DNA of 25,465 bases from a virus. The position numbers and the translations under genes were made by a program. A model generated the notes under the pieces. That model was not told where the DNA came from and did no database searches. It worked only from the letters and a program-made list of their open reading frames with translations. Location of the stretch: IMG/VR virus record IMGVR_UViG_3300047392_000092, positions 1-25,465 of that record. The stretch is one strand, 5' to 3'. The stretch's first letter is position 1; every line of letters starts with the position of its first letter. Positions 3,460-21,750 of the stretch are shown one piece after another.

Positions 3460-3466
3460 TATTTAG
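3460..3466 (-). promoter_or_regulatory. TAAATA late-type promoter motif for portal
   Basis: Minus-strand CTAAATA directly after the stop of the 90-residue gene and 27 nt before the portal ATG, with the AAAGGAAA ribosome site between. It would start a portal/117-aa transcription unit. Confidence 0.55.
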
Positions 3467-5526: not shown

Positions 5527-5830
5527 CTACAGTCTCCATAGGATACATTTGAGAGATAACACTTATATGCCACAATGCTTCGCTTAACTTGGCAATTTCA
5601 TCTGCAGAGCAGTTCCATGTATCTGGATCACTTAAATCAGTTGGCTTGCGTGTTAATATTGCTTGTAATCGTTCAGCAATTAATCGTTGGATATGCTCAG
5701 TTTGACCAGGGAATCTAGTCTTAAAAGATTCCCTGTGTGCGGCATTTACCTTTTGCAAGATAAGCGTATCGCGAGTCATACGCTCTTGCTGTGCTTGATG
5801 TATCATACCATCACGAACTTGCTTGGTCAT
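5507..5830 (-). CDS. Hypothetical helical protein, 107 aa, packaging gene block
   Basis: Starts at ATG 5830, overlapping the TAA of the 259-aa gene by one base (TAATG), so translation is likely coupled. The protein is mostly helical, with basic/Gln-rich residues in the first half (HQAQQERMTRDTLILQ) and a more acidic end. It lies two genes upstream of terL, where small terminase subunits are often found, and its size is on the small side for that role. No helix-turn-helix could be assigned by eye. A small-terminase function is possible but competes with the gene at 8034-8384. Confidence 0.8.
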   Translation of the reverse strand: MTKQVRDGMIHQAQQERMTRDTLILQKVNAAHRESFKTRFPGQTEHIQRLIAERLQAILTRKPTDLSDPDTWNCSADEIAKLSEALWHISVISQMYPMETVDEPGKE

Positions 5831-6609
5831 TATTCAAGATCCCAAGGGTTTGAAGCAACTGATTCATTTAGACTCACAAATTCACGATCAATCCATGTGT
5901 CCCAATGGTTACTTTTGTTAACACGGAATGTTTGCATCAATGCACGTAGTTTGCGTCCTTGTGGAGTCATACTACCATCTTCACGCACAATTGTTTGTTC
6001 ACCAGTGCGTGGATCAACCCATTTAATAATTTCAGGGCGTTCACGACCATACTTGTCTAGTTTAACACCATGTGGGCGTTGATCAACAGGTCCTACAATC
6101 TCATACGAAATTTGTCCTGTTTTGTATTTGCGGAAGTATACTGACACTTTCTTGTCTTGCATACGACTTTCAAAGTCAGGGTGTGGAATACTGTTGCTTA
6201 CAAAGATGTTTTGTAATTGATTAGCATCAGGCAATTTAGGATCTTTAGCAGGCACTGGTTTCAAGTCTTCAACTGGGATTAGTTCAGTGCGATCAATGTA
6301 AGGGTTATCGCCGCCTACAAATTTAGGATCTACTTGTTCACCATTTAGCACATCCATTGCTACTTGGTACTTTAACTTATTGGCACGACCTTTTAAGTTT
6401 AAGACAATCCCCGTTTCATCAAATACAAATCTCTCGAGTTCTTTGGCAGTGGGAAAGTCGGTCATTAGACCGTCCATGTCATATTCGCCTGCGTTGCTAC
6501 CAATAGGTGCCGCTGGCTTTACTGCTACTTCTGGTTTTGTTTTTTTAATCTTTGCGGGAGCGGCTTCTGCTGAAGTGTCCCATGGGTTTTCTGGGTTGGT
6601 TGGTTGCAT
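5830..6609 (-). CDS. Hypothetical protein, 259 aa, packaging/head block
   Basis: Starts at ATG 6609 behind AAGGAAAATGAA. The first about 45 residues are Pro/Ala/Lys-rich and probably disordered (NPENPWDTSAEAAPAKIKK). A folded middle follows (GLMTDFPTAKELERFVFDETGIVLNL, which resembles a small alpha/beta unit). The C-terminus repeats the N-terminal-type tag: NPWDTS occurs near the start and NPWDLE is the very end. First gene of the unit that also encodes terL and the 90-aa protein. Not recognised as a known family; a head or packaging accessory is inferred from position. Confidence 0.85.
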   Translation of the reverse strand: MQPTNPENPWDTSAEAAPAKIKKTKPEVAVKPAAPIGSNAGEYDMDGLMTDFPTAKELERFVFDETGIVLNLKGRANKLKYQVAMDVLNGEQVDPKFVGGDNPYIDRTELIPVEDLKPVPAKDPKLPDANQLQNIFVSNSIPHPDFESRMQDKKVSVYFRKYKTGQISYEIVGPVDQRPHGVKLDKYGRERPEIIKWVDPRTGEQTIVREDGSMTPQGRKLRALMQTFRVNKSNHWDTWIDREFVSLNESVASNPWDLE

Positions 6610-6658: not shown

Positions 6659-6665
6659 TATTTAG
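6659..6665 (-). promoter_or_regulatory. TAAATA late-type promoter motif for the 259-aa to terL unit
   Basis: Minus-strand CTAAATA overlapping the TAA stop of the 205-aa gene, 49 nt before the ATG at 6609. It is immediately followed by the stem-loop at 6633-6657. Confidence 0.55.
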
Positions 6666-7563: not shown

Positions 7564-7886
7564 TATAGTTGGTTTCCTTTTGTTGGGCCACGGCCTACAT
7601 TGATTTTATCAGTGTTGCCGAATTTGGGCATGGATTTTGTTGCACCATCACCAACTGCTTGACGTTGTTGTGGATTATGGCAACCCATTGTAATTTCTTT
7701 AGCACGGTTTGGAACTGCTGTGCCGCCACCAGTTGGGCCACGACCTTTGTTGATCAATGCATCTGGGTTTGTTCGAGTGTGCTGATTGCCACTGTACTTT
7801 GTTGATGCCTTGTCAAAGCCTGGGCTTGAAGTGCCTGTCGCGGCATTATAACCAGACACGGCTTTTTGACTATGAGATTCTTTCAT
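7563..7886 (-). CDS. Small GRGPT-repeat protein, 107 aa
   Basis: Starts at ATG 7886 in an ATGA overlap with the 48-aa gene before it, behind a GGAAAATCAAA leader. The protein carries two copies of a GRGPT-x-G unit (INKGRGPTGGG and INVGRGPTKGN), each preceded by a short Asn/Asp segment. It also has TRTNPDALI, which matches TRTNPNVSI in the 205-aa protein. A Cys-His pair (MGCHNPQQRQ) lies between. Gly-, Asn- and Lys-rich, no hydrophobic core visible. Unknown function; probably a DNA- or capsid-associated flexible protein, by inference only. Confidence 0.85.
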   Translation of the reverse strand: MKESHSQKAVSGYNAATGTSSPGFDKASTKYSGNQHTRTNPDALINKGRGPTGGGTAVPNRAKEITMGCHNPQQRQAVGDGATKSMPKFGNTDKINVGRGPTKGNQL

Positions 7887-8029
7887 TTTGATTTTCCTTT
7901 TTTGTTTGCTGCCGCTCTCTTAGTAGAGTAGGCGATAGCCACTGCCTGTTTAACAGGTTTTCCTGCTTTTACTTCTGCGGCAACATTCTTTTGGAATGCT
8001 TTTTTGCTTGTTGATTTCTGTAGTGGCAT
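7883..8029 (-). CDS. Small basic protein, 48 aa, leaderless candidate
   Basis: Frame from ATG 8029 to TGA at 7883-7885. The product begins MPLQKSTSKKAFQKN, has a central AGKPVKQAVAIAYSTKR and ends KKGKSK. It is very Lys-rich with one amphipathic helix. Short basic proteins of this style (MPL-x-K, then AGKP-x-KQAVAIA) are frequent unnamed genes in podophage genomes, from memory. It overlaps the next gene by ATGA. The ATG has no Shine-Dalgarno site; instead TAAATA ends exactly 5 nt before it. Confidence 0.85.
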   Translation of the reverse strand: MPLQKSTSKKAFQKNVAAEVKAGKPVKQAVAIAYSTKRAAANKKGKSK

Positions 8030-8033
8030 AGTT

Positions 8034-8384
8034 TTATTTAGCGTCAGGGCTAACTCCAACAAGTTTGGCTAATGCTTCAGCAAACGCCGCTTGTTTTGCT
8101 TCAATAGCATCTTTACTATCTGTAATTTCTGCTTCAACAATAGTTGTAGCAGTTTTGTCTAATATGATCTTTTCGTAAGTGACACGGTTTTTGGTATCAC
8201 CTTCGTTAATTGATTGTATGTAGCCTTCCATTAAACTAACAACAAATGGCTTGCCCAGCATGTTCTCTGCTGTTTCAAGTATCTCTTTTGCTGTTAGCCT
8301 ATTTGTTTGTCCTTTTGGACGGCCAGCACCAGCACGGGCTCCGCCCTTGCCGTTTTTCTTTGCAGTAGTAGTGTTCTTTTCCAT
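8034..8384 (-). CDS. Candidate terminase small subunit / DNA-binding protein, 116 aa
   Basis: I place the start at ATG 8384 (product MEKNTTTAKKNGKGG...). The longer frame from ATG 8399 would read straight through the TAAATA motif and has no ribosome site. Residues about 13-32 contain GGARAGAGRPKGQTNRL, a Gly/Arg/Lys motif typical of the N-termini of many phage small terminase and related DNA-binding proteins. It is followed by helices (TAKEILETAENMLGKPFVV) and a C-terminal helical part rich in Ala/Glu. The family link is through this motif, and is not proof of packaging activity. It is several genes away from terL, which is unusual but not exceptional. Likely leaderless (5 nt from TAAATA to ATG). 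Confidence 0.8.
   Translation of the reverse strand: MEKNTTTAKKNGKGGARAGAGRPKGQTNRLTAKEILETAENMLGKPFVVSLMEGYIQSINEGDTKNRVTYEKIILDKTATTIVEAEITDSKDAIEAKQAAFAEALAKLVGVSPDAK
8035..8041 (-). promoter_or_regulatory. TAAATA motif 5 nt before the 48-aa gene
   Basis: Minus-strand CTAAATA overlapping the TAA stop of the small-terminase candidate; the spacer to ATG 8029 is exactly 5 nt (AAACT). A start 6 nt after the motif would make the A of the ATG the first base of the mRNA. Confidence 0.55.
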
Positions 8385-8389
8385 AATCT

Positions 8390-8396
8390 TATTTAG
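8390..8396 (-). promoter_or_regulatory. TAAATA motif 5 nt before the small-terminase candidate
   Basis: Minus-strand CTAAATA with a 5-nt spacer (AGATT) to ATG 8384. It lies back to back with the rightward TAAATAC at 8417-8423, forming a divergent promoter pair within 34 bp. Confidence 0.55.
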
Positions 8397-8416
8397 CATC
8401 GCTATGCTGCCAGTCG

Positions 8417-8423
8417 TAAATAC
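8417..8423 (+). promoter_or_regulatory. Rightward TAAATAC promoter motif for the lone plus-strand gene
   Basis: TAAATAC on the plus strand, 23 nt before ATG 8446, with the AAAAAGGAACTGCA ribosome site in between. It is the only TAAATA I find on the plus strand of the whole window, and it precedes the only convincing plus-strand gene. Confidence 0.6.
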
Positions 8424-8445
8424 AGTATCTTAAAAAGGAACTGCA

Positions 8446-8934
8446 ATGCTTGAATATACATGGCAACCAGCAACTGGGCTAGATGTGCCCGATATAGTTG
8501 CTGTATCAATTGAAGACTGTCAACGAGAAATTGAGACTATCTTTACACCAGAACCAACAACGTTTGCTCGCAACATAACTTTTGCAATTGTAAACCAATT
8601 TTATCTACCTGGATCAGAACTTATAAATGTAGCCAGGGACGGTGCTGGTAAACTTGTAGCATATACTTGGGCCAAATCTGGGGAGCGAGCCGCTTGGAGT
8701 GATGATTGCATGTTAGCCATACGCATGGCCCATGTGGATTTGAGTTTGAGCACACGCCAGCGTTTTAGACTTATCACAGACATGATGCAAATGTGGGAAC
8801 AGTTTGCCATCAGCACAAACTGTAAGATTATCAGTAGTAATACTATGCGTAAAAATCAAGATGCGTTCTTAAAATTACACGCACGATCAGGTTATGATGT
8901 GCGTGGGTCGTATGCGTATAAAAGATTAGCCTAG
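8446..8934 (+). CDS. GNAT-like acetyltransferase-fold protein, 162 aa, only rightward gene
   Basis: Starts at ATG 8446 after a strong AAAAAGG site. The pattern suggests a diverged GNAT fold: a central strand pair (ELINVARDGAGKLVAYTWAKSG), then a strand (AHVDLSLS), a helix where acetyl-CoA usually binds (TRQRFRLITDMMQMWEQFA), then a strand and closing helix (KIISSNTMRKNQDAFLKLHARSGYDVRGSYAYKRL). The usual R/Q-x-x-G-x-G/A pyrophosphate loop is not seen, so catalysis is uncertain. It ends tail to tail with the Dps-like gene, the stop regions overlapping by 9 nt, so it is embedded in the leftward virion block with its own divergent promoter motif. The gene call is firm; the fold call is moderate. 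Confidence 0.9.
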   Translation: MLEYTWQPATGLDVPDIVAVSIEDCQREIETIFTPEPTTFARNITFAIVNQFYLPGSELINVARDGAGKLVAYTWAKSGERAAWSDDCMLAIRMAHVDLSLSTRQRFRLITDMMQMWEQFAISTNCKIISSNTMRKNQDAFLKLHARSGYDVRGSYAYKRLA

Positions 8935-9357
8935 TGTGGAACGCAACTGCCAAATCTGTTTAGCAATAGCCAATATACGATCTTGTGCGTAGTTGGCTAT
9001 TTCTTCATGATCTTCATCTTCAGCAATTTCATCAAGTTCAATATAACATTGTTTTAAATGTTCTAAGTCTTCAAGTACTGTAGTCAACAACTCATCAGCA
9101 TCACCTGTTACTGCTGTAGGGCGAATGTGTGCGGCATCTAATATATCAAACAAGTCGTTGGGCATATACGCATCAAGTGTGCGTAGCAGTTCACCAATAA
9201 TATCAATTTGGCCTTGTAGTGATTCGTAAATGCCACCAAGCAATTCGTGATCACTTACAAAGTTGCGGCCCTCAATGTTTACATGGCTCACATGGCTTTT
9301 AAAATAAGCCACAAAGTTGTCATTAAAGACTTGGGTTAGTTGTTCTACTGTTGTCAT
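8926..9357 (-). CDS. Dps-like ferritin-fold protein, 143 aa
   Basis: I choose ATG 9357; a GTG at 9378 would extend it over the preceding gene's stop and the TAAATA motif. Residues 20-56 match the Dps signature: HVNIEGRNF, then HELLGG, then DIIGE, in register with the E. coli Dps segment HWNMRGANF/HEMLDG/DTMAE. Four of the five ferroxidase ligands are present (H25, H37, D52, E56, equivalent to H51, H63, D78, E82). The fifth, Asp67 of E. coli Dps, is Gly41 here, and the usual Trp after the first His is Val. The C-terminal half is acidic (DEIAEDEDHEE) and helical, as expected for a four-helix bundle. Dps proteins form dodecamers that bind DNA and oxidise iron. Here it sits amid virion genes, so it may be packaged or may protect phage or host DNA late in infection. 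Confidence 0.85.
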   Translation of the reverse strand: MTTVEQLTQVFNDNFVAYFKSHVSHVNIEGRNFVSDHELLGGIYESLQGQIDIIGELLRTLDAYMPNDLFDILDAAHIRPTAVTGDADELLTTVLEDLEHLKQCYIELDEIAEDEDHEEIANYAQDRILAIAKQIWQLRSTLG

Positions 9358-9362
9358 AGTGT

Positions 9363-9369
9363 TATTTAC
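9363..9369 (-). promoter_or_regulatory. TAAATA motif 5 nt before the Dps-like gene
   Basis: Minus-strand GTAAATA overlapping the TAA stop of the 827-aa gene, with a 5-nt spacer (ACACT) to ATG 9357 and no Shine-Dalgarno site. Confidence 0.5.
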
Positions 9370-11849
9370 CAAGGCCACCAGTCAGGCTTTGTTTTGCTGG
9401 TTATTACATCGCCAGTGCTGTTCCAGTCTGGATCAAATTCATACAAATTATACTTGTATGATTTTTCACCTGTTTTGCGATTGATCACGGTTTCTCTGAC
9501 TATTCGTTGTGAGGAACCATCTGGGCGTTTAGTTGATACTTCTGCTTCTTGAGGATTTTCAGTGTATTCTCTTAAATTGCCATCTTCTTTCCAAGCCGCT
9601 CTGTGATATTTGTTGCCTTCAATTCTGCTACTAAACACATGATGTTTTGCATCTTCTTTGTCTAAGTATGGATTCTGGAATGTGCCATCTGGTTCAGCAG
9701 TTTTCATTTCCATGGTGCCTGATGGTTTAGATTTTTTATTTAAATTGGCACGAATCTTTTCTGCTGTTTCAACACCACTAGGTTTTGGATCTGCTTCAGT
9801 CCAGTCAACACCACGAGGAACACGTTTACCTGTTGCTGTGTCTGTGGCAAATATATCAACTTTTGTTGGATCAAATGGCCAACCACGGCTTTGCGAATGG
9901 ATTGTTTTGTTGCCTTCTTGCCAAGTGCCTTCTGTTGGTATACCAGCAATTTTATCAAAAGATTGTTGTTGTCTAAAATCTGTTTCATCAGCAAATACTT
10001 GTGCTTTTGGCACTTCAGGTTCGCCAGTCATCATTTCAAATCTGCTGCCACCCGGAGCACGATACTTGTCACCTAGCACACGCTTTCTACGTTCAATAGC
10101 GGCTTGCATGTCTGCTAGTTCTTTTGCTACTTCTTCTGGACTGCGTTGTGATTGTTCATAAGCCAAGCGTTCATTGGCTTCTTTCATTTGTGTCTTTTGT
10201 GTAGGGCCACGAGTACCAGCACCACGTAATCCTGCTTCTGTTTCCACAAACTTTTGAATAGCCTTACGACCATCCTTAACGCTCATTGATTGATAGTCTG
10301 TGCCTAACTTGCTCCAATCGACTGGTGGCAAGCCCTCACCTGCTAGTGTTTGATCAATAAGTTCTTTGTTTAATACTTTACCACGACCGCTAACTTGACC
10401 ATATGCTGATTGTAAAGTTTTGTCCAACTTCTCACGAGTAGTTAATGGAGTTTCAGCTCGTGCTTCTGCAGCCTTGGCTGCTCGTGCTTCAGCAGATTCA
10501 AACGGAACTATGTCGCGTGTAGGTGCTACTGGGCCACTAACTTCACCAATTGCGGCTTGTTGTTCTGCTTGGCGTTTGGCCATAATGTCAGCGGCCATTT
10601 GTTCTGCTTTGGCTTTTGCGGCTGCTTTTTGTTGTGCAATTGCTTCTGCTTCGGCTGCGGCTTGTGCTTGTTGTTGTGCAATAACTGCTGGATCAACTGG
10701 TTGCGATACTTGTTGTTGGCGTTCTCTGGCTGCGGCTTCTGCGGCTGCAACTCTAGCATTTGCGGCTGCTTCTTGTGCGGCAACTACATCAGGAGGTAAT
10801 GCTTGTGTGTTTATTCTTGCGGCTGCTTGTTGTCTAACACCACCGCCACCGCCACCTGGGGCTACAGGGCCAGCAGAACGCAACTGTCCAAATTCAGTTG
10901 GTGTTAATGGTGTAAAGCCAGCTTTACCTAATTCATTATATGCTTGCCCTAATTTGTAAGCATCATATCCTTTTAATCCTAAACGTCCTAGCGTAGGAAT
11001 ACCACCAAACAAATAATCGCTGCCAACTTCTGCAGCCAATTTGTATGGGTCTCGATAACCTGCACCAAATTGTTCGCCAGCGGCTTGAATAGCTTGTCCT
11101 TTGTATGGGACCATACCTTGCGTTCTTGCTAATGCATCTTGTGGTAATTCTGTAATTGGTCTTGCTGCCGCTTGTGCTTGTTCGGGAGTAATTGTGCCAG
11201 CACGGAACTGTTCTAATACATCTGCAGGAATATATGTGTCGCCTACAGGCATACGAGCACTTGGCGTTTCCCAAGGTTTTAGATTTGCTGGATTCGCAGT
11301 TGGTTTTGCAGTTGTATTAAATGCACCACTATAAGCACCTTTACCAAATTCAACACCGCCTTTTACAACTGGTTTAACAGCACCTGCTACTTTGGGAACT
11401 GCTGGGCCTAGGCCAATCATAGCACTATTAACCATGCTGCCTACATCTGCTTCTGGTAATCCTGTAGCACCTGCAATAGGAGCAACTACATTTTCACCTA
11501 ATTTTTCACCTATTACATTACCAACAGTTCGTAATGGAGCATTTTCATAACCAGGAGTGCCTGTGACACCAAACGCACGACCTACTACATCCTTAGGACT
11601 TGTAGTTTCTGCTGTTGCTTGCTCTGGACTACGACCTGCGGCACGAGCCAAAGCATACGCACCATAATCTAAAGTGCCAGTTAAGGCATTTAATGCCGAG
11701 TCAGCCATACTAGCAGTACTACGCCCAAAGGTTTGTAATGCTGTTTCAGGTTGTGTCTTCTTTAAAAAAGCGTCAGGATCAAAACCTGCGGATTTTTTCT
11801 CACGCTTTTCACTGCGAGCCAGGAATGCGTCTGGATCAAACTCTGCCAT
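9366..11849 (-). CDS. Large internal/ejection virion protein, 827 aa
   Basis: Starts at ATG 11849, two bases after the preceding stop, with a weak GGGA site. The N-terminus carries two copies of FDPDAFL (residues 4-10 and 23-29) flanking a charged linker. A Gly/Ala/Pro-rich region with hydrophobic stretches follows (about 100-175; GENVVAPIAGATGL, MIGLGPAVPKVAG). About 335-435 is a long Ala/Gln/Glu-rich segment that should form a helix or coiled coil, preceded by a run of six Gly. The C-terminal third is hydrophilic and ends in the aromatic PDWWPW. Length, composition and position next to the transglycosylase protein fit a DNA-ejection protein stored inside the capsid. No enzyme motif seen. 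Confidence 0.85.
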   Translation of the reverse strand: MAEFDPDAFLARSEKREKKSAGFDPDAFLKKTQPETALQTFGRSTASMADSALNALTGTLDYGAYALARAAGRSPEQATAETTSPKDVVGRAFGVTGTPGYENAPLRTVGNVIGEKLGENVVAPIAGATGLPEADVGSMVNSAMIGLGPAVPKVAGAVKPVVKGGVEFGKGAYSGAFNTTAKPTANPANLKPWETPSARMPVGDTYIPADVLEQFRAGTITPEQAQAAARPITELPQDALARTQGMVPYKGQAIQAAGEQFGAGYRDPYKLAAEVGSDYLFGGIPTLGRLGLKGYDAYKLGQAYNELGKAGFTPLTPTEFGQLRSAGPVAPGGGGGGVRQQAAARINTQALPPDVVAAQEAAANARVAAAEAAARERQQQVSQPVDPAVIAQQQAQAAAEAEAIAQQKAAAKAKAEQMAADIMAKRQAEQQAAIGEVSGPVAPTRDIVPFESAEARAAKAAEARAETPLTTREKLDKTLQSAYGQVSGRGKVLNKELIDQTLAGEGLPPVDWSKLGTDYQSMSVKDGRKAIQKFVETEAGLRGAGTRGPTQKTQMKEANERLAYEQSQRSPEEVAKELADMQAAIERRKRVLGDKYRAPGGSRFEMMTGEPEVPKAQVFADETDFRQQQSFDKIAGIPTEGTWQEGNKTIHSQSRGWPFDPTKVDIFATDTATGKRVPRGVDWTEADPKPSGVETAEKIRANLNKKSKPSGTMEMKTAEPDGTFQNPYLDKEDAKHHVFSSRIEGNKYHRAAWKEDGNLREYTENPQEAEVSTKRPDGSSQRIVRETVINRKTGEKSYKYNLYEFDPDWNSTGDVITSKTKPDWWPW

Positions 11850-11851
11850 GA

Positions 11852-14194
11852 TTATAGTCCCAATCGTTTCTTAATTTCCGGGGCACGCGGATCGTTAGGA
11901 TTCTTACGAAGCCATTCAACTGCGTCTCGTTCTTCTTTACTTAAACGTTTTGTAGGTGCTTCTGGTGCTTGTTGTGGAGTTTCAGGAACAAACTTGCCAC
12001 CAGTCTCAACTTGCTTGCGAGCAAAGTCTAAAGTTCTGCGTGTGCCGTCTGCACTCTTACGCAACCAATCTGCAACTGCTTCTGCACTCCATGTTTCATC
12101 TGGCTTAGTGCTTGTAACGAATTGTAAGTCACGATCAGTTGGGTTTGTTCCCAACATTTTGGCATTAGTAGCCGCAACTTTGTTAACAACTTCCAATACA
12201 TTTTTTGTATTAACAGCATCTTGTGTCTTAAACAATTCACCCATGGTGTATTCACCTGGGATCTGTCCATGGATCAATGTGCCAAAGTTATTAGGTTTGG
12301 TTAATGCATCAGTTGCCGCACGTTCAGCATTGGTAATTTCGCCAACAAGTTTATCACTGCTGGCAACAATGTCGCCTGCTTTCTTAACTACTTCTTTACG
12401 ATATGTTTCACTTACTTCAACGTTTTGTTTTTGTTGTGTTAGTGGCACATTTACATTACCGCCTGCTGGCATTGTAGTTGTGCCTGCTGGAGCACCACCT
12501 GCTGGAGCAGTTTGTGTAGGAGCACCACCTTGAACAACTTGACCACCTACTTGTGCAGGAGCACCAGCTGGTTGTGCTAAATCAAAGCCATATGCTTGAC
12601 GGAATTGAGCACGATCTTCTGCACTCTTGAATGGACCGTTAATAGCAACATAATCTTTTTCAGCATCCAATACGTTAGTGCCGTGTTTCTTTTTAAGGTC
12701 GGTAATAAGACCAATGTCTGCTTTGGCTTGCGTTGTGCCAATGCTTTGTAGTGTAAGTTTTCGAGGATCGCCTTTGTATGGTGCACCACCTTGGATATTA
12801 ACCAATGCAGCCTTACCTGCATTGTCATAGCCACTGCGATAACGAGCACCAGTTGTAGGATCAACATAAACTTCAGCACTTAAACTTGTGCCTTTACCTA
12901 AACCGCCACCAGTCATATAACTTGCCAGTTGTTCTTGCGGAATAGCTGTGTTGTCTGCATTGATACCTTTTAATGGTAAGCCTTTTGCATTAACTTGGAT
13001 CAGGGCAGTTTCACCTTTGTCGTTGGTTGCACTTGTCCACTTGTTGCCAAAGCCTAATTTAACTGCTTCTTCGCCTGCAAGTTGTGGGCTTAGGAAACCT
13101 AACAAGATCATTTTAGCCCAAGAGCCTTGTTGCGACTTTAATTCATCAGCAATAGCACGACTTGCTTTAGGATCACCTTGACTTGCAGCCGCAACCAATT
13201 TAGTTGTTTGCTCTTTTGCCGCATTCATTTGGAATTCTTGTTCTAATAATGCTCGAGTCTGTTCTTTAGCAACAGTTTGCATTGCTGGGAACTGTGCATA
13301 CTCAGGATTCTTAGCAATTTCCATCCACTTGAATGGATCTTTACCTGCTTCTTCAAATAGTCTATTGCGGAACTGTGGAGTATCGCGTGGTTCCATACCA
13401 CCAGCCGCTAATGGCTTATTATCTGGTCCTAATACTGTAGTAGTGCCATCTGCATTTGTGATTAAACGATTACCGTTTTCATCAATTTGCATTTGTGGTT
13501 GACCCATTTGTGGCATCTGTCCAGGAGCAACAGGAGCAGTTGGAGCACCAGGAGTAATTGTAGGGGCACGTTGTGCTTGTCCAGGTGGTAGTGTGCCTGC
13601 TTGGGCACTAGGGATCATAGCATTGAATACTTTGCCCAAGTAACCTTGTGTTTCACGAGGTAATTGTGCTTCATTCATTTGTCCTTGATTGCGTGCCATG
13701 TTTTGTTGCACACGACCTGGTCCTGCATTGTAAGCGGCAGCGGCTTTACGCTCATCACCACCAAATTGTTTTAACAATGCTTGATAATAGTCTTGTCCAA
13801 CACGATTGTACTCTTCTGGAGTTTGTGCTTGTGCTGGACGAACACCATAACCAGGATTAGCCGCAGTTGCAGGCATAACTTGGTTGCGGAACATAGCACC
13901 AGCAGGACTTGTTAGTGGCTGTCCATTAGGAGCAAAGTCTCTACCACCACTTTCAGCCTGTTGCATACGAGCAAAAGTATCTGGGCTTACTGGACCAGCC
14001 GCAGTAAGCATTGTCTTAGGAGCAATTGCTCCAGGAATTTCTTCCTTGGTAATTTTTTCTTGTGTGCCATCGCCGTAGGTTTTAATTTCCTGCGTGTGGA
14101 CTGCTGTGTTGCCTAACTCTTCTCGCTTCTTACGTTCTTCTTCAGTTTCGTAATCTCCAAGATAGTTGCCCATTGCGTCAAATTGTGCTGCCAT
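11852..14194 (-). CDS. Internal virion protein with N-terminal lytic transglycosylase domain, 780 aa
   Basis: Starts at ATG 14194 after AAAAGGATAA. Residues about 70-190 form an SLT/lysozyme-like domain: RMQQAESGG with E81 as the probable catalytic Glu, SPAGAMFRNQVMPATA where the family has its Gly-Ala-Met-Gln turn, and AAYNAGPGRV (153-162) as the substrate-groove motif. The rest is long, Gln/Ala/Pro-rich and mostly helical, with a Gly/Ala/Pro linker (PAQVGGQVVQGGAPTQTAPAGG) near the middle. This layout resembles T7 gp16-type ejection proteins, where the domain opens peptidoglycan during DNA entry. It is the middle gene of a unit with the 245-aa and 827-aa proteins. Confidence 0.93.
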   Translation of the reverse strand: MAAQFDAMGNYLGDYETEEERKKREELGNTAVHTQEIKTYGDGTQEKITKEEIPGAIAPKTMLTAAGPVSPDTFARMQQAESGGRDFAPNGQPLTSPAGAMFRNQVMPATAANPGYGVRPAQAQTPEEYNRVGQDYYQALLKQFGGDERKAAAAYNAGPGRVQQNMARNQGQMNEAQLPRETQGYLGKVFNAMIPSAQAGTLPPGQAQRAPTITPGAPTAPVAPGQMPQMGQPQMQIDENGNRLITNADGTTTVLGPDNKPLAAGGMEPRDTPQFRNRLFEEAGKDPFKWMEIAKNPEYAQFPAMQTVAKEQTRALLEQEFQMNAAKEQTTKLVAAASQGDPKASRAIADELKSQQGSWAKMILLGFLSPQLAGEEAVKLGFGNKWTSATNDKGETALIQVNAKGLPLKGINADNTAIPQEQLASYMTGGGLGKGTSLSAEVYVDPTTGARYRSGYDNAGKAALVNIQGGAPYKGDPRKLTLQSIGTTQAKADIGLITDLKKKHGTNVLDAEKDYVAINGPFKSAEDRAQFRQAYGFDLAQPAGAPAQVGGQVVQGGAPTQTAPAGGAPAGTTTMPAGGNVNVPLTQQKQNVEVSETYRKEVVKKAGDIVASSDKLVGEITNAERAATDALTKPNNFGTLIHGQIPGEYTMGELFKTQDAVNTKNVLEVVNKVAATNAKMLGTNPTDRDLQFVTSTKPDETWSAEAVADWLRKSADGTRRTLDFARKQVETGGKFVPETPQQAPEAPTKRLSKEERDAVEWLRKNPNDPRAPEIKKRLGL

Positions 14195-14209
14195 GTTTGT
14201 GTTATCCTT

Positions 14210-14947
14210 TTAACCTAGTCCGGGTATGCTAACGCCTTTGAACCCAAAGCCCATTTTATCACTACTTGAAGTAGAGCCTTGTGTGCCACGGAAGTCAGGC
14301 TGATAACTTGCGGCTGGAGTTCCAAACAATACACTCGCATATTGATTGTATAATTGTTGTGGCACCATACTTGCACTTACTGCGTTGCCAGCGGCACCTA
14401 ATGCTTGTCCAATACCACCTTGTCCGTAACTGGCCAATTGATTTGCGGCTTGTAAGCGTTGTCCCATTACGTTGTTTGCAACTTGAGCAGCCAATTGTTG
14501 TTGTTGACCTTGTGCTTGCCCTGCCAAAGCACGATCAGCAAGTGCTTGTCTAGCACTACCTAAATTACCAGAGCCACCAAAACTGCGTTTTTGCATTTCT
14601 AGGTTCTGCATGTATTGTGCTTGTGCTGGAGCCATTGCAGCCGCCATTTGTTGTTGTGCGTAATCAGGATCAAACACACTTTGTAAGCCACTAATACCAG
14701 TGCGTAATGCACTTTCACCTGTGCTACCCAATAGTTCTTGTGCTTGGCGTGCTGTGCCTGCTTGGTTTTGTGCGGCATTTAATACACCACCAGCGTTTTG
14801 GTTGTAAATGTTTGTTGCACCGCCAACTGCTTGTGTGTAAGACGGAATAATAGTTCCAGTCAACATTGCAGTTTGTGCTCTAATAGCGGCTTTTTGTTCT
14901 TCAGTTGTAACTGGAGCACTTGAACTTGTTGTTCTGCTAAAATCCAT
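14210..14947 (-). CDS. Internal/ejection virion protein, Gln/Ala-rich, 245 aa
   Basis: Starts at ATG 14947 after AAAAGGAAAAAC, 20 nt downstream of a CTAAATA motif. Residues 15-210 are Gln-, Ala- and Asn-rich helix-forming sequence (AAIRAQTAML, QAQYMQNLEMQKRSFGGSGN, QALADRALAGQAQGQQQQ), with Gly breaks. Small Ala/Gln-rich proteins of this kind next to the transglycosylase protein are typical smaller ejection proteins (comparable in place to T7 gp14), which form part of the channel across the cell envelope. Assignment by context and composition. Confidence 0.85.
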   Translation of the reverse strand: MDFSRTTSSSAPVTTEEQKAAIRAQTAMLTGTIIPSYTQAVGGATNIYNQNAGGVLNAAQNQAGTARQAQELLGSTGESALRTGISGLQSVFDPDYAQQQMAAAMAPAQAQYMQNLEMQKRSFGGSGNLGSARQALADRALAGQAQGQQQQLAAQVANNVMGQRLQAANQLASYGQGGIGQALGAAGNAVSASMVPQQLYNQYASVLFGTPAASYQPDFRGTQGSTSSSDKMGFGFKGVSIPGLG

Positions 14948-14967
14948 GTTATGTTTTTCCTTTTCTA

Positions 14968-14974
14968 TATTTAG
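14968..14974 (-). promoter_or_regulatory. TAAATA late-type promoter motif for the ejection-protein unit
   Basis: Minus-strand CTAAATA, 20 nt before ATG 14947, with AAAAGGAAA between. It would drive the 245-, 780- and 827-aa genes. Confidence 0.55.
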
Positions 14975-14983
14975 TCAGCGGCA

Positions 14984-16924
14984 TTAGCCTCTAACAGGAG
15001 CAACAGGTCCCGATACAAATTGTGCTTGGTATTCTGGACTATTGATGTAATCAACAAGGTCTTGTGGCCTTGCTACTGGTGCCATCTCTTGTAGGCCCCA
15101 TGGTGCTTGTGGTGCGTTAGGCACCGTGTTATACTGCTGAGCATTAAACGTAGGTCCTTCTTGATAACCATGTCCGCCCCAGTAGTATTGACTCTGCACA
15201 GGGCTAGTTGTGTTATAAAATGGTGGTGGTTCAATCCAACCTGGGTTCAATCCTGTTGGGATTCTCAAATCAGGCAATGGTGTGCCAGGAGTTATCACAG
15301 TAGGAGGTGTTGTTGGTGGAGGTGTTACAGGAGGTTTAGGTGTAACAATCGGGAATATAGGAGTAACTGGAGTTGGAGTCCAACCACCTGGATTGTATGG
15401 ATCAACAATGTCAACGGGAGGTGTTGGAGTTTCAACTACAGGAGTTGTTATTAAATCTACACCGCCTACACCAGTTGTTGGTCTAGTATCTGTAATTGTA
15501 ATTTCAGGAACATCATCTACTGGCGGTGTTGTTGTGCCAGTTGTAGGTCTAGTATCTGTAATTGTGATTTCAGGAACATCTGCAGGAGCAGGTGTGCTTG
15601 TTGCTGTGCCATCAGGGTGGATAGTAATACTTGAACCATCATCATATGTGTATGTTGTAGAGCCATTGCCCATATCAACACCGGCACCAGTTCCACCAGT
15701 TCCACCAGTGCCGCCAACATGGCTTGTGCCTGTTGTATCACGTGTTACACTTGAACCATCTGGATTGTTTGTTACACTTGTGCCATCTGCATAAGTTGTT
15801 GTAATGCTGCCGTTCCAGTTTACAGTAGTTGTGCTGCCATCAGGATTAACACTTACAGGAGCAACATAATTGCTAGGTGGGCCATAACCATCATTACCAC
15901 CTGTTACTTCAATAGGAGTGCCTGCTGGTTGAACCCATGCATTACTTGCTTGATCAAAGTAAGCACCTGTTGTTGGGTTAACATAAGTTTCCAATGTGTC
16001 ATCCCACTTGGCACCGTTTGAGTTTTCAATTGACGCAAGTTCAGTGCCTTCTGGTAAGTTGCCAGTGCCTGGGTTTTCACTACTGCGTGGTAAGCCAGAA
16101 CTTTCAACACGGAAGTCTGTTTGCATATTACCATCAACTGAGATTGGACCGCCACTTTCAATTGCTGCCATGTAATCACTTAACAATACTGTTTTACCAC
16201 TATCAAGAACAACTTCAGGACCGTTTGGACCGTTGTAAACTGTTCCTGCTGAACTATCGCTCATGCCAGTTGATACTAAATCTATAGGAGCAGTAGGAGC
16301 AACTGGTCCGTAACCAATTTCATAATTTACTGGAGTTCCGCTACCACCTGTTGAGCCACCGCCAGCTGGTGTGCTTAAATCAACTACAGGAGCAGGTTGA
16401 TATGGACTTGGAGTTGACCCAACTACATTGCTACCAGCGTCACGAGTAATAGTAGAGCCATCATCAAATGTGTAAGTTGTATTACCTGTTGAAGGATTAA
16501 AGTATTGTTGAGCGGCACCTGAAGCACCGCCCAAGAAGCCACCTGTTAATGCACCACCAACAATATCATTGCCAGTTAATGCGGCACCAGTAGCACCTGC
16601 GGCTGCACCGCCTGCGGCACCAGATAATATCTCTCCAGCACCTGCACCAGCAGCCGCACTACCTGCAAGCCCGCCCACATATCCAGTTGCACCACCTAGT
16701 AATGCACCTTCTAAAATGTTGCCACCGTCTTCTGCGGCTCCGGCAGCACCACCTAATGCACCTGCCCATACAGGCGGCACACCCATAGCCATAGCACCAA
16801 CAGTTACAATAGCTTGTAACGGATCATCAACGATTGCTTCTACTGTGTCGCCAATAAAGTCGCCCACATCTTCAATAGCATCGCCTACTGTGTCGAGAAC
16901 ATCTCCAACAAATCCACCGCACAT
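14984..16924 (-). CDS. Gly-zipper / Pro-Thr-rich repeat virion protein, 646 aa
   Basis: Starts at ATG 16924 behind AAAGGAATTATAAT, one base after the GNAT gene. Residues 1-35 are an acidic helix (DVLDTVGDAIEDVGDFIGD). Residues 38-137 are hydrophobic with dense Gly/Ala zipper patterns (GGAAGAA, GGATGYVGGLAGSA, GGALTGGFLGGASG), capable of membrane insertion. After that come Asp-Gly-Ser strand repeats (TFDDGSTIT, YADGTSVT, YDDGSSITIHPDG), and an exact duplication of VPEITITDTRPTTG at 450-463 and 472-485. Residues about 488-570 are Pro/Thr-rich and extended. No catalytic motif. The Gly-zipper head suggests a pore or channel component of the ejection apparatus; the repeat part could be a fibrous spacer. 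Function inferred. Confidence 0.85.
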   Translation of the reverse strand: MCGGFVGDVLDTVGDAIEDVGDFIGDTVEAIVDDPLQAIVTVGAMAMGVPPVWAGALGGAAGAAEDGGNILEGALLGGATGYVGGLAGSAAAGAGAGEILSGAAGGAAAGATGAALTGNDIVGGALTGGFLGGASGAAQQYFNPSTGNTTYTFDDGSTITRDAGSNVVGSTPSPYQPAPVVDLSTPAGGGSTGGSGTPVNYEIGYGPVAPTAPIDLVSTGMSDSSAGTVYNGPNGPEVVLDSGKTVLLSDYMAAIESGGPISVDGNMQTDFRVESSGLPRSSENPGTGNLPEGTELASIENSNGAKWDDTLETYVNPTTGAYFDQASNAWVQPAGTPIEVTGGNDGYGPPSNYVAPVSVNPDGSTTTVNWNGSITTTYADGTSVTNNPDGSSVTRDTTGTSHVGGTGGTGGTGAGVDMGNGSTTYTYDDGSSITIHPDGTATSTPAPADVPEITITDTRPTTGTTTPPVDDVPEITITDTRPTTGVGGVDLITTPVVETPTPPVDIVDPYNPGGWTPTPVTPIFPIVTPKPPVTPPPTTPPTVITPGTPLPDLRIPTGLNPGWIEPPPFYNTTSPVQSQYYWGGHGYQEGPTFNAQQYNTVPNAPQAPWGLQEMAPVARPQDLVDYINSPEYQAQFVSGPVAPVRG

Positions 16925-16925
16925 A

Positions 16926-17360
16926 TTATAATTCCTTTAAACAATTAAACCCTTTAGTTTTGTAGCCTAACTGGTTATAAAATCTTTCAACAACACGTGG
17001 ATTATCCCCTGTTGTTTGGCCAAGCCATACTTGACTTGCTCCTACTTGCATTGCCCATGTTTCCAAATGCTCAATTAGCACAGCGGCAATTTCACTTGAT
17101 CTATATTCAGGGTCAACATACAAGCCAATATCGCTTACACGCTTTGCTGTGTTGAATACACTTTCATGTACAATACCGCATATAAATCCCACCAACTTGC
17201 TATCGTCAAATGCCAACATAGAGAATGTAACAGGACTTACAATTAGAGTTCTTATCTTAGACTCAGTTGCAACACCAAGACTGGTATGACTTAACATACT
17301 GTCCGTAAGTGCTTTTAATGCTGTTACATCTGTTTCAACGGCTTTTCTATACTTTATCAT
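16926..17360 (-). CDS. GNAT-family N-acetyltransferase, 144 aa, leaderless candidate
   Basis: The protein follows the GNAT order: an N-terminal strand and helix (IKYRKAVETDVTALKAL), a central strand (FSMLAFDDSKLVGFICGIV), the acetyl-CoA strand-loop-helix (VSDIGLYVDPEYRSSEIAAVLIEHL, 75-99), and the end motif (DNPRVVERFYNQLGYKTKGF). In the binding loop, R87-S-S-E-I-A92 replaces the usual R/Q-x-x-G-x-A, so the first Gly is Glu. The target is unknown; in a virion block it could modify a structural or host protein. The ATG at 17360 has no ribosome site and lies exactly 5 nt after TAAATA. Confidence 0.9.
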   Translation of the reverse strand: MIKYRKAVETDVTALKALTDSMLSHTSLGVATESKIRTLIVSPVTFSMLAFDDSKLVGFICGIVHESVFNTAKRVSDIGLYVDPEYRSSEIAAVLIEHLETWAMQVGASQVWLGQTTGDNPRVVERFYNQLGYKTKGFNCLKEL

Positions 17361-17365
17361 TGTTA

Positions 17366-17372
17366 TATTTAG
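17366..17372 (-). promoter_or_regulatory. TAAATA motif 5 nt before the GNAT gene
   Basis: Minus-strand CTAAATA beginning two bases after the TAA stop of the 492-aa gene; 5-nt spacer (TAACA) to ATG 17360 and no Shine-Dalgarno site. Confidence 0.5.
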
Positions 17373-17373
17373 T

Positions 17374-18852
17374 TTATTCTTTTACCACTTGAGCACTCAA
17401 GCCACGGTAGTTAAACTGTGCTTGTGTCATTTGTGCTTCACCGCTTAGGGTATCAAAGTTTATTTCCATAATATACCAGTAATATCCTGGTCCAGGCACA
17501 TCAATAATACTTGTAAAGATTGTGTCGTATGGTGGTAATGCAACTGGTGTGTTGTTGTTTACACCAGTTACTTGTAATGTCATATCGTTAGTGCCATCTG
17601 CACCGCCAATATCGCTACCTTTTACCAACAGCGTGTCGCCTACAGCATAGTTAATGCCGCCTCCAGCAACTGTGACCACTGTGTTAAAAAACGCCGCATT
17701 GGCTGTTGCACTTGTTAATGTAGCTGTTCCTGTAACTGCACTGGCAAATTGAATCTGCGTGGGAGTTGCGGCTGTAATCAAATATGTGCCATCAAAACTT
17801 GGAGCACTTGTGCCAGTAATTGTTATGCTTTGTCCCACTGTAAAAGCAATACCAGTGTTTGTTAATAAAACTGTGCAAGTTGTGCCATTGCCAATACAGG
17901 AAGTAATTGGTTTAAAGTTCCAAGGTTCAGTGCGATACGGGATAGCAGGGCCAGGAGTAAAGTATGGACCACCGCTACTCAAACCAGTTGTGCTTTGATT
18001 TAAGTTTGGACGCAATTCAATATCCAATGTGCATAAACTTCCCGAGCCACTTGTTACTTCGGGCATGACACCATAAAATCTTGGGAAAGTGCCTCGTGGC
18101 ACATGACTAGTGCCACCAGTAACTTCTACATTAAGCACTTGTCCGCTTGTGGGTTCTAAACTGCCTGTGTAGTAACTCTTGGTTGCAACCGTTGCGTTTG
18201 GTCCGTCTAAACTAAACACATAATCTGGGTTGGTTGGATCATTATTTGTTTCGCCACGATAACGATTGACCTTTACTGTGTAATACAATGGACTTGTAAC
18301 TGGACTAACATATTCCAACACTGAGTTCAATTGTGCGTTAATAAACACACGGTCAGTGCCGCCAGTAACTGTAACACGAGCATTACAATCTGTAGATGTG
18401 TCAAAGTTGCTTGTCGTGTAATTTACAAAACCACCGCCCAAGTCTGGGTCTGGCGATACTTGCGGATTAGCAAAACGTGCAACAAAGTATGTTGTGGTGC
18501 ATTCAACAACACCAATCGGACTCCATACTTCATTATAAAAACCAGTAGCAAAGCCACTTGTTTCAACTGTGTTACCATTACCAAACGGTGGTGTGCCTTG
18601 TGGTGTAGCAAATGTAAACTTTACTGTTCTGCTGTCTAAACATTCTGCACTGGACAATGCTATGTTGGGATAGTATAATACCGTAGGAGTTGCTTGCACA
18701 TATGGCACACGGAAGTTGCCAGTCAAGTAACCTGTTTCACTACTACTAAAGCCCGCAAAGTTTTGTCCCAAGCCTGCTGGACCACTTAGCACATAGTTGA
18801 TGGCATCTACAATGCCTTCGCTGTCGCTTATCTCTACAGGATACTTGGCCAT
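17374..18852 (-). CDS. Tail structural protein, beta-rich, 492 aa
   Basis: Starts at ATG 18852, overlapping the nozzle stop by one base (TAATG), so the two are coupled. The protein is rich in Thr, Gly, Ser, Asn and Val with few Lys, typical of beta-structured virion proteins, and carries several Cys. Two modules stand out. One is at about 336-372 (VGQSITITGTSAPSFDGTYLIT, an Ig-like strand set). The other is at about 384-432 (GGGINYAVGDTLLVKGSDIGG, then NDMTLQVTGV). Both have relatives in the preceding nozzle protein. The last about 40 residues are a separate cap. Could be a tail hub, adaptor or fibre-base protein; no receptor-binding tip recognised. Confidence 0.85.
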   Translation of the reverse strand: MAKYPVEISDSEGIVDAINYVLSGPAGLGQNFAGFSSSETGYLTGNFRVPYVQATPTVLYYPNIALSSAECLDSRTVKFTFATPQGTPPFGNGNTVETSGFATGFYNEVWSPIGVVECTTTYFVARFANPQVSPDPDLGGGFVNYTTSNFDTSTDCNARVTVTGGTDRVFINAQLNSVLEYVSPVTSPLYYTVKVNRYRGETNNDPTNPDYVFSLDGPNATVATKSYYTGSLEPTSGQVLNVEVTGGTSHVPRGTFPRFYGVMPEVTSGSGSLCTLDIELRPNLNQSTTGLSSGGPYFTPGPAIPYRTEPWNFKPITSCIGNGTTCTVLLTNTGIAFTVGQSITITGTSAPSFDGTYLITAATPTQIQFASAVTGTATLTSATANAAFFNTVVTVAGGGINYAVGDTLLVKGSDIGGADGTNDMTLQVTGVNNNTPVALPPYDTIFTSIIDVPGPGYYWYIMEINFDTLSGEAQMTQAQFNYRGLSAQVVKE

Positions 18853-21308
18853 TATCTATCGTCCTCAGTTTGTGTGTATTGCCATGTTGTAGCAGAACAC
18901 ATCCATGCTGTAGTCTTTGAACTGTTACCAATTTCAAAACTATTAACACGATGTGCATTCTGGTTAACCTGCACCCACGGATAATCAGTGTCAGTTGCCA
19001 TTGTAAGTGCTGTTGTGGCTTGTGCTGGTTGTCCAACAGAGTTAGCACCTTCTAACTTAACATCCACACTACCAATCAGCGTAGGTTGTGTGTTGGGATT
19101 AGCTGGCAAGCCTTTTTGTGTTAGGTTAACAACTTCTGGTAGCACACGATGCACTAACAGTTTACCACTGTAGTCTTCTAGCATTTTAATATTGTCTCTA
19201 CGGAACACACTCACAATTGGTAATGTCTCGCCGTTGATGTCACTTAGCAAATTAAAACCAATGTCCTTTTGCACAATGCGTTTTGATTCATCACCACGAG
19301 CGTAAACTACAGTTCGGCTACCTGGATTGTATTCCCATGCACCATTTGCTTGACCTGTTGGGATAGTAAAATCTGTAATGCCTCCTGTGCCGTTAACTGC
19401 TAACACAGTCATAAAGCAATCGTTAGCAGGAGTTGTGCCTCCAAGCAATGTGCCTAAAATTTTGATATTGTTACCAACAGCATAGCCGCTACCTTTGACC
19501 ACATTGTCACCTTGAACAGCGTAGGCCTTGTATGCACTACCTTGCTGTTGAATATTAAAGCGAGCACCTGTGCCTACACCTGTTACAGTAGTTGCCGCAA
19601 CATTGGTCCATTCTATTAAAGGGTTAGGTGTCCATACTGGGCTTTCGCAAGCAAAGGTTGCTGAGTTAACATCGCGGGGTGCGTTCCATACATCCAAGTC
19701 ATAACGATATGCCAGCATCTTGTTTGGCACGCCATTGTTTGCTTCTGTTGTTGGATAGTAAATTTCTACTTGGTTCTTCTGTGTGTTAACTTCCATAAAC
19801 ACACGATCCACATAAGCAGGATCCAGCTGATCAAAGAACCAATTCTTCACACGCTGATTACCTAGGCCTTGGAAGTCTTGTCCATCAAATACCCAAATGT
19901 CACGTGCATCAATGCCATAAACCAATTTGTCAGTGTTGGCCCAGCAGTTACTACTCAACAGTCCTCTGCCTTGGTTAACAAGTTTAACGCCCAGAATAGG
20001 TGTGCTTGTTGTTGAATAGTTAAGCGGTGAGAACACAACTGTGTCCCAGTAACTTTGTAAGAATAATTGTCCATTACTTGGAAATGCATCAATAACAGCA
20101 CCACGAAGCGGAACTTCTAATTGGTTGGCCACGTTTGTAACAGTTGGTTCCCATGTGATAGGAGCCTGGTTAAGTCCAAACGCTTGGCTCCACTGTACTG
20201 TAACGGGATACTGGCTAATAGTGCCATCTAAGTTTGTTGCAGTAAGTCCACCTGCTACCAATACGCAACCAACGTTGGGAGTATTGTATAGTCGCATAAA
20301 CCGAGCGTAAACACTCTTCCAATTTGGATTGTAGTTCCAAGTATACTTTGCCGCAACACTACCACGACCATTGCGACTTGTGTCCCATGCACTACCAGGT
20401 TGTGCTAGGTAATCAATTGTGCTGGTTGTCGAACTTACAACTTTATATTCACCATCGTAAAATTGGTTAGTATCTGATATAACAATGTAGTCGCCAGCAC
20501 CGTAAGGATTGCCTTCATATGGATGTCCGTTAATGGCAGTTGATGCTACCGTTTGGCTTATGCTAACTTCCCATGTTGTGCCATTGTAAGAACCTGGTGT
20601 TGGTTCACTTAATTGTCTAACAAGTTGTGTGCCAGCCGCAACACCTGTGCCAGACAAGAACGCACCAATGGCAATTTCACCTGTGCCAAATGTGCCTATT
20701 GTTAATGTAGTGCCGCTTATTGAACTACCAGTTGTGTCAAACACATAACGAAAGTTGATACGCTGTGTTGTAGCATCAACATAGGTAATATCGCGTATGC
20801 GTGTGGGCTGGCTCTGACTATACATTACCAATTTAGGATACTGTTCGCCTTCTATGTCTGGCCAAAACATTGGAGCGTTTGCTTCATCATTAAAGAACGG
20901 CACCGTTCCGTTCCACGCTTCTGTAATATTGGTTGCTTGGTTATAAGTTGTAAATGGGCCAGCATCGGGAGTAATGTCTTGCCACGCACCGCCAGGACCT
21001 GTATCATATTCACCGTTACTGGCCCACCAGTAACCTTCAGTTGTGGCTACAACAAAGTAAAAGTTATTGGTAACCCCTGCTTGTCCTTGACGATAACCGC
21101 CTGTAATAAATGTAGGAGTGCCTGGAACACCATCTGGTAATATAGCTTGATCACCCAGGGTTGAGCGAACACCACGCACATCTGTTTCTACGTTTTGTCC
21201 ATCATTGTATTCGTTTGGGCCCAGGGCTGTTGAGGGAACATCTGGGCTAAATGTCATCTTTGATAGTGGGATTCGCACTTCATCAAATGCTTTTTTTGTT
21301 TGTGCCAT
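18852..21308 (-). CDS. Probable tail nozzle protein (T7 gp12 / P22 gp10-like), 818 aa
   Basis: I place the start at ATG 21308 (MAQTKKAFDEVRIPLSK), with AAAGGA about 10 nt upstream. An in-frame ATG at 21347 would read through the TAAATAC motif. The length, the conserved-looking opening (NDGQNVETDVRGVRSTLGDQAIL) and the series of beta repeats ending in aromatic turns (EGYWWASNGEY, WNGTVPFFNDEANAPMFWPD, YGIDARDIWVFDGQDFQGLGN, YRYDLDVWNAPRDV) fit the propeller-like nozzle at the tip of short tails. Two inserted modules occur at about 271-307 (GAGDYIVISDTNQFYDGEYKV) and about 575-647 (VKGSGYAVGNNIKILGTLLGG). It opens the late block directly after the terminator. Confidence 0.85.
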   Translation of the reverse strand: MAQTKKAFDEVRIPLSKMTFSPDVPSTALGPNEYNDGQNVETDVRGVRSTLGDQAILPDGVPGTPTFITGGYRQGQAGVTNNFYFVVATTEGYWWASNGEYDTGPGGAWQDITPDAGPFTTYNQATNITEAWNGTVPFFNDEANAPMFWPDIEGEQYPKLVMYSQSQPTRIRDITYVDATTQRINFRYVFDTTGSSISGTTLTIGTFGTGEIAIGAFLSGTGVAAGTQLVRQLSEPTPGSYNGTTWEVSISQTVASTAINGHPYEGNPYGAGDYIVISDTNQFYDGEYKVVSSTTSTIDYLAQPGSAWDTSRNGRGSVAAKYTWNYNPNWKSVYARFMRLYNTPNVGCVLVAGGLTATNLDGTISQYPVTVQWSQAFGLNQAPITWEPTVTNVANQLEVPLRGAVIDAFPSNGQLFLQSYWDTVVFSPLNYSTTSTPILGVKLVNQGRGLLSSNCWANTDKLVYGIDARDIWVFDGQDFQGLGNQRVKNWFFDQLDPAYVDRVFMEVNTQKNQVEIYYPTTEANNGVPNKMLAYRYDLDVWNAPRDVNSATFACESPVWTPNPLIEWTNVAATTVTGVGTGARFNIQQQGSAYKAYAVQGDNVVKGSGYAVGNNIKILGTLLGGTTPANDCFMTVLAVNGTGGITDFTIPTGQANGAWEYNPGSRTVVYARGDESKRIVQKDIGFNLLSDINGETLPIVSVFRRDNIKMLEDYSGKLLVHRVLPEVVNLTQKGLPANPNTQPTLIGSVDVKLEGANSVGQPAQATTALTMATDTDYPWVQVNQNAHRVNSFEIGNSSKTTAWMCSATTWQYTQTEDDR

Positions 21309-21334: not shown

Positions 21335-21341
21335 TATTTAG
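21335..21341 (-). promoter_or_regulatory. TAAATAC late-type promoter motif for the nozzle gene
   Basis: Minus-strand CTAAATAC, 26 nt before ATG 21308, with AAAGGACC between. It starts 10 bases past the terminator stem at 21351-21384, so it restarts transcription at the early/late boundary. Confidence 0.6.
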
Positions 21342-21715: not shown

Positions 21716-21750
21716 GTATTTATTATAATACTTCTGGCCTATTGTGTCAA
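21716..21750 (-). promoter_or_regulatory. Consensus sigma-70 promoter fused to TAAATAC
   Basis: Minus strand: TTGACA (21745-21750), a 17-bp spacer, TATAAT (21722-21727), continuing directly into AAATAC so that the 12-mer TATAATAAATAC spans 21716-21727. Both hexamers are exact consensus with optimal spacing. The -35 box begins 4 bases past the methyltransferase stop codon. It points at the 83-aa gene. Confidence 0.85.

Follow-up and report, generated by a model that had tools for sequence, protein, structure and literature searches.

A TAAATA box placed directly before start codons in an uncultured podovirus lineage: a predicted late-type promoter of leaderless and leadered genes

Why does the hexamer TAAATA stand exactly 5 nucleotides (nt) before the ATG of four genes that have no Shine-Dalgarno site in the viral record IMGVR_UViG_3300047392_000092? 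This record of 25,465 bases, hereafter the window over its whole length, comes from an uncultured podovirus whose coding genes lie almost all on the minus strand. The initial annotation had proposed that the four genes are expressed from leaderless mRNAs. Comparison with relatives leads us to conclude, with a probability of about 0.85, that TAAATA is a single-element promoter of the type used for late genes by phages T4 and Aeh1, lying at -11 to -6, and that the same box feeds both genes predicted to be leaderless and genes whose leaders carry an AAGGA-type ribosome site, the late factor being putative.

Four start codons in the window

The pattern TAAATA-N5-ATG occurs four times in the window, always on the minus strand (8040-8027, 8395-8382, 9368-9355 and 17371-17358), against an expectation of 0.42; none of 100 shuffles reaches four, and the shuffle maximum is two. 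The hexamer alone is not enriched (15 copies found, 18.8 expected), so that the unusual feature is its position. The coding (minus) strand carries 14 of the 15 copies, and two of the 15 are intragenic (9742 and 25309). The sole plus-strand copy, at 8417-8422, belongs to the only convincing plus-strand gene (8446-8934), whose ATG follows 23 nt downstream and which has a AAAAAGGAA ribosome site.

The box at 8035-8040 precedes a gene of 48 amino acids (aa) at 7883-8029, which matches phrog_2423, of unknown function, and whose transcript is predicted to start at 8029. That at 8390-8395 precedes a 116-aa gene at 8034-8384; an in-frame ATG is also present at 8399, but the ATG that is conserved among relatives is 8384. 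The third, at 9363-9368, opens a 143-aa Dps/ferritin-like gene at 8926-9357 (Pfam Ferritin, 8.6e-11), and the fourth, at 17366-17371, a 144-aa GNAT acetyltransferase gene at 16926-17360 (Acetyltransf_1, 7.9e-13). The names originally given to the last two products hold, whereas that of small terminase for the 8384 gene is tentative only, since the sole match of its 121-aa open reading frame (ORF) is phrog_15261, of unknown function.

No AAGGA-type site is found upstream of these four ATGs, whereas all the window genes with a box 20-49 nt upstream have one, just as had been annotated. On the minus strand these are the gene at 14210-14947 (box 14968-14973, 20 nt, AAAAGGAA site), the gene at 18852-21308 (box 21335-21340, 26 nt, AAAGGACC site), the portal gene at 1150-3432 (box 3460-3465, 27 nt, AAAGGAAA site) and the gene at 5830-6609 (box 6659-6664), whose 49-nt leader holds a stem-loop and a AAGGAAAA site; the plus-strand gene at 8446 is the fifth. 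A gene truncated at the left edge of the window likewise has a box 45 nt upstream, at 763-768, and a TTTAAGGATAG site. At 8040 and 9368 the box and the stop codon of the preceding gene overlap, the TAA of the box at 9368 doubling as the stop of an 827-aa gene, and translational coupling therefore had to be checked in relatives.

Spacing and gene classes among relatives

The large terminase of the window shares 49% identity with that of the uncultured podovirus MW202484 and about 32% with those of PaP3/LUZ24-like Pseudomonas phages; a terminase scan gave 80 loci with terminase identities of 82-93%. A first spacing count took in these loci and MW202484 (81 loci, 970,967 bases), and a later one 83 coding-oriented sequences, comprising the 80 terminase relatives, two helicase relatives and the window, with MW202484 left out. 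A host search with the terminase among bacterial genomes returned one 29% match, in a Luteibacter metagenome-assembled genome, too distant to be used. The spacing counts, hexamer ranking and single-base variant test do not involve a gene caller. The caller used elsewhere is crude, with start choices biased towards ribosome sites and the box, and this affects the ribosome-site count in 14 records, the window leaders, the boxes of records G019 and G020, and the list of leaderless genes in relatives.

In the 81 loci TAAATA is biased towards the coding strand (446 copies, against 150 on the opposite strand), and it precedes an ATG at N4, N5 and N6 in 24, 111 and 26 cases, with none at these spacings on the opposite strand. 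The peak in the 83 sequences runs 7, 25, 117, 26 and 1 from N3 to N7, with no opposite-strand case at N4-N6, and removal of near-identical contexts leaves 11, 70 and 17 at N4, N5 and N6. When all hexamers are ranked by their excess at N5 in the same set TAAATA comes first, and a comparable peak is seen for none of its 18 single-base variants. Other hexamers do reach similar scores when all spacings are scanned, resembling conserved coding words and ribosome sites, and the argument thus rests on the strand contrast, the sharpness of the peak and the single-base variants. Start codons at N4-N6 in the 83 sequences comprise 168 ATG, 9 GTG, 5 TTG and 4 CTG.

The spacer had been expected to be conserved, and it does not vary freely among relatives. 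Among homologues of the 8384 gene 65 of 71 have a spacer of 4-6 nt, as do 34 of 42 among those of the 48-aa gene (exactly 5 nt in 32 of the 42); some of these loci are on the same contigs, and the spacing is kept down to about 35% protein identity. The sole relative found of the GNAT gene, in locus L098, has an identical box and spacer. For the Dps-like gene the leaderless prediction stands in the window and in the 8 of 36 homologues that have the box at 5-6 nt, and fails in most other relatives. In many of these (L104-L129) the start overlaps or adjoins the upstream stop codon (TAATATGA and similar) with no ribosome site, a second mode of initiation independent of a Shine-Dalgarno sequence. 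In three loci (L014, L016 and L027) the 48-aa gene is absent and TAAATA-N5-ATG stays, opening an ORF of a few codons before the next gene, as if the promoter had outlived its gene.

Could the ATGs instead be sites of reinitiation after an upstream stop codon, with TAAATA kept partly because it holds that stop? The stop does lie inside the box for the 8029 and 9357 starts, and the stop/start overlaps of the Dps homologues fit such coupling. The 8384 gene, however, heads its transcript, divergent from the 8446 gene, and has no nearby upstream gene on its strand, making coupling impossible there. For 31 of the 85 non-redundant cases in which an ORF of 40 or more codons is opened, no upstream ORF ends within 20 nt, and the spacer is still exactly 5 nt in 25 of the 31. 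In the rest of the 85 the ATG follows the stop at varying distances (8 nt in 18, 4 nt in 12, 9-20 nt in 19), while its distance to the box stays constant. A terminator-like hairpin and T-run usually lie between the upstream stop and the box of a conserved 195-aa gene that follows the presumed capsid gene, and leadered genes carry the same extended box, as described below. We regard coupling as a very unlikely explanation.

The relatives reveal two gene classes. Distances were measured from the box to the first ATG in frame of the downstream gene for the 322 boxes outside genes, of which 29 without a suitable gene and 127 without an ATG in the chosen frame were dropped; in the listed part of these 127, many are genes led by a ribosome site tens of nucleotides away, their frame missed by the gene caller. 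The distances are bimodal, with 98 at 4-6 nt and 55 at 17-68 nt, compared with 7 at 0-1 nt and 6 at 7-16 nt. A match of at least 4 nt to AAGGAGGT is present at 47 of the 55 distant starts and lacking at 81 of the 98 close ones, and among conserved genes of 14 records a ribosome site accompanies 7 of the 34 with the box at 4-6 nt, as opposed to 197 of the other 264. Upstream of the box the two classes have similar position matrices (97 and 57 non-redundant sites), with A at -15, a purine mostly at -13 and C at -12 (in 70-72%), then TAAATA, giving an extended box A-N-R-C-TAAATA that is common to both; no -35 element is found in either set of aligned sites.

This shared motif, together with the nearly empty interval at 7-16 nt, argues for a promoter rather than a signal acting on RNA or the ribosome. 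The A/T-rich sequence beside the start, and the lack of ribosome sites at most N4-N6 starts, could also suggest that TAAATA-N5-AUG is read by ribosomes as a non-Shine-Dalgarno signal within a longer mRNA. Such a signal would not be expected 17-68 nt upstream of genes led by their own ribosome site, nor placed divergently between the 8384 and 8446 genes, and of all the explanations weighed here we give it the least credence. Chance, coupling and an RNA-level start signal were each rejected as the main explanation on the evidence of the shuffles, the distance classes, the shared motif, the spacing peak and the stop distances.

The leaderless set had been described as small accessory proteins, a view that the relatives do not bear out: in them the predicted set takes in a 680-aa protein, the 117-aa gene downstream of the portal gene and the conserved 195-aa gene described above.

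Transcript start, promoter type and the reader of the box

With a transcription start 6 nt past the box, the distance seen at T4 late promoters, the A of the ATG would be +1 at the N5 sites. RNA polymerase usually prefers a pyrimidine-purine step at the start, and a pyrimidine before the ATG is what this placement predicts; of the 70 non-redundant N5 sites 67 have one, compared with 124 of 324 ATGs led by AAGGA. Of the 17 N6 sites, 13 have T as the sixth base, which retains the pyrimidine-purine step at the ATG and would shift the start by one base, onto the A. At leadered sites the sixth base after the box is a purine in 78%. Other features expected of leaderless genes are also present, namely a -10 element that precedes the start codon by about one helical turn, and AUG starts free of a Shine-Dalgarno site (4 of 4 in the window, and the 81 of 98 noted above in relatives). 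It is thus very probable that the messages of the N5 genes have the start codon at their 5' end, and the prediction of leaderless mRNAs is well supported in silico by a peaked and conserved spacer and by ribosome sites that are mostly lacking.

We propose that A-N-R-C-TAAATA would serve this lineage as a single-element promoter of the T4/Aeh1 late type, with its core at -11 to -6 and no -35 element. In one gene class the position of the box would set the transcription start on the A of the ATG, give or take about a base, and the leader-free mRNA would be translated by leaderless initiation, the 70S ribosome engaging the 5'-terminal AUG, a mode that is established according to the cited account (PMC9031893). 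In the other class the same promoter, 17-68 nt upstream, would give a leader that carries the AAGGA ribosome site. Host RNA polymerase with a putative specificity factor would read the box, probably late.

The likeness to T4 late promoters is closer than the initial annotation had claimed. As described in the cited reports, these promoters consist of a TATA box, TATAAATA, at -13 to -6, while that of Aeromonas phage Aeh1, whose gp55 is substantially diverged, has a/gC at -13/-12 and reads CTAAATA from -12 (PMC1524935, PMC2988020). The box of the window lineage, R-C-TAAATA at -13 to -6, is the Aeh1 variant; it shares with the T4 and Aeh1 promoters the core, the R/C at -13/-12, the predicted distance to the start, the absence of a -35 element and a position upstream of structural genes. 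What sets this lineage apart from T4-like phages is that it consists of podoviruses in which gp55 is not detectable, and that the box stands directly before ATGs.

Several observations weigh against our reading. The relatives are not independent samples. A ribosome-site match of at least 4 nt is present at 17 of the 98 starts at 4-6 nt, a ribosome site likewise accompanies the 7 of 34 conserved genes counted above, and 28 of the 36 Dps homologues are not leaderless. In G019 and G020 boxes also precede non-structural genes, so the term late may not suit every member. In eight T4-like genomes TAAATA-N5-ATG shows little or no excess over the reversed pattern (10 against 5 in T4), indicating that the N5 arrangement does not accompany gp55-type promoters and that the placement at ATGs is a feature of this lineage. 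Searches for the factor itself point the same way. The gp55 profile phrog_234 finds nothing in 14 podovirus records or in MW202484, although it finds T4 at 2.5e-70; the profile of sigma-70 region 2 (PF04542) likewise has no match in these records or MW202484, and its match to T4 is weak; and no T7-type polymerase was found in 16 records, in a search whose positive control also went without a match.

Other searches for a reader gave a similar result. In profile-profile comparison of eight gp55 proteins with 284 protein clusters from the 14 records, including the window, the best hit was noise (8.8% over 8 columns, in a 55-aa ORF), with positive controls at 99.7% and 99.9%. G019 (39,456 bases) and G020 (38,992 bases) have their ends at different genes, and the junction missing in one is bridged by the other, so that the pair represents a complete circularly permuted genome; here too no gp55-type sigma was detected. 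In this genome a primase was found, and a helicase by our own reading, but no polymerase was recognised. Pfam and PHROGs revealed no regulator among the small conserved proteins, the 0.083 match of the 117-aa protein to a regulator family not being credible.

A double helix-turn-helix protein present in five records (L087:6238-6924, L142:8295-8996 on the minus strand, L092:13916-14617, L090:5947-6660 and L097:6674-7399) was set aside as reader of the box, being absent from the complete G019/G020 genome, and could be a regulator in part of the family. Its gene has no ribosome site, and TACATA, TATATA or TAAGTA stands 4-5 nt before its ATG.

Might ordinary host sigma-70 suffice, with no special factor? 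That no phage factor was found would agree with this. The box, however, lacks the T at -7 and neither class has a -35 element, so that the TATAAT-like -10 with A-11 and T-7, accompanied by a -35 or extended -10, is not seen. The best sigma-70 matches in the window are a perfect TTGACA-N17-TATAAT at 21722-21750 and a TTGACT-N17-TATAAT at 23011-23039, both on the minus strand and both at early-type genes; G005 and G007 have similar consensus-like TTGACN-N17-TATAAT promoters at such genes, whereas the window boxes serve mostly structural genes. A promoter read by sigma-70 alone is thus unlikely, though it is the least improbable of the alternatives, and late transcription from the box is probably carried out by host RNA polymerase with a putative factor. 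From this we infer a switch from early (sigma-70) to late (TAAATA) transcription. In both of the early-type promoters (21750-21722 and 23039-23011) the TATAAT merges into a TAAATA that begins with its last T (TATAATAAATA). At the non-structural genes of G019/G020 (L136-L139), several boxes have an ACTGAAT-like word 7 nt upstream and A instead of C before the box, and these may form a second promoter class.

A further alternative is that podoviruses lacking a late sigma of their own evolved Aeh1-type promoters that the late machinery of a T4-like phage infecting the same cell would activate, its gp55 reading the box. The exact match to the Aeh1 late consensus fits such dependence on a helper, as does the failure to detect a gp55 homologue with a profile that readily finds that of T4. 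Nothing, on the other hand, links these phages to a helper; their own sigma-70 promoters on early genes leave room for an undetected phage factor; and an environmental search for phages that carry gp55 yielded no more than five, all closely related to the two queries. We consider this doubtful, slightly more so than reading by sigma-70 alone. If it were true, the virion genes would need the helper to be expressed at all, with some of them translated from leaderless mRNAs. Virophages use the late promoters of a giant virus, and a helper-dependent podovirus would be the bacterial counterpart.

Comparison with known systems and minor observations

How does the predicted arrangement compare with leaderless genes elsewhere? 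The cI gene of phage lambda is a leaderless repressor gene. The cI and cro genes of PY54 are reported as leaderless repressor genes as well (PMC4488713), and in all of these the transcript starts at the AUG, as predicted here; they differ in being single regulatory genes of temperate phages, with promoters of another kind. For the unrelated Thermus phage phiYS40 leaderless middle and late mRNAs are reported (PMC3594737), and in both cases a set of lytic-cycle genes would be expressed in this way; in the window lineage, in contrast, only a subset of genes is involved and the same promoter also serves leadered genes. The TA-led leaderless genes of bacteria, as described in the cited study, lack a Shine-Dalgarno site and have a -10 box some 12 base pairs upstream of the start codon (PMC3160421), much as here, but that box is TANNNT and sigma-70-like, unlike TAAATA with no T at -7.

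In the literature searched, which covered few subscription papers, we found no report of a T4-late-type box, or of its docking onto ATGs, in such phages. The new points are the presence of this box in podoviruses with no recognisable gp55 and its precise docking onto the start codons of a subset of genes. MW202484 has structural genes in common with the window lineage, yet in its first 24 kilobases the box occurs 5 times forward and 6 times in reverse, with no coding-strand excess.

The box offers transcript-start predictions at single-base resolution across a large family of uncultured phages, and accounts for genes that, for want of a ribosome site, would get poor scores or wrong starts from gene finders. 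One promoter type with two translation modes in the same phage could separate a subset of genes when host initiation factors change. What, then, reads a T4-late-type promoter in a phage with no recognisable gp55 is the question that these genomes raise.

Some minor observations concern individual boxes and leaders. The leader of the 259-aa gene (5830-6609), at 6664-6610 on the minus strand, forms a stem-loop directly after the predicted transcript start, followed by the AAGGA-type site; a stem-loop is present in nearly all of the 33 distinct leaders listed, its stem differing greatly in sequence among them, and is possibly a 5' stabilising hairpin. TAAATA is missing in 11 of the 55 homologues of this gene, several of which carry TAAGTA instead. 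In the window TAAGTA-N5-ATG at 22681-22670, on the minus strand, opens a 92-aa ORF (22392-22670) and may represent a fifth leaderless start, with a variant box.

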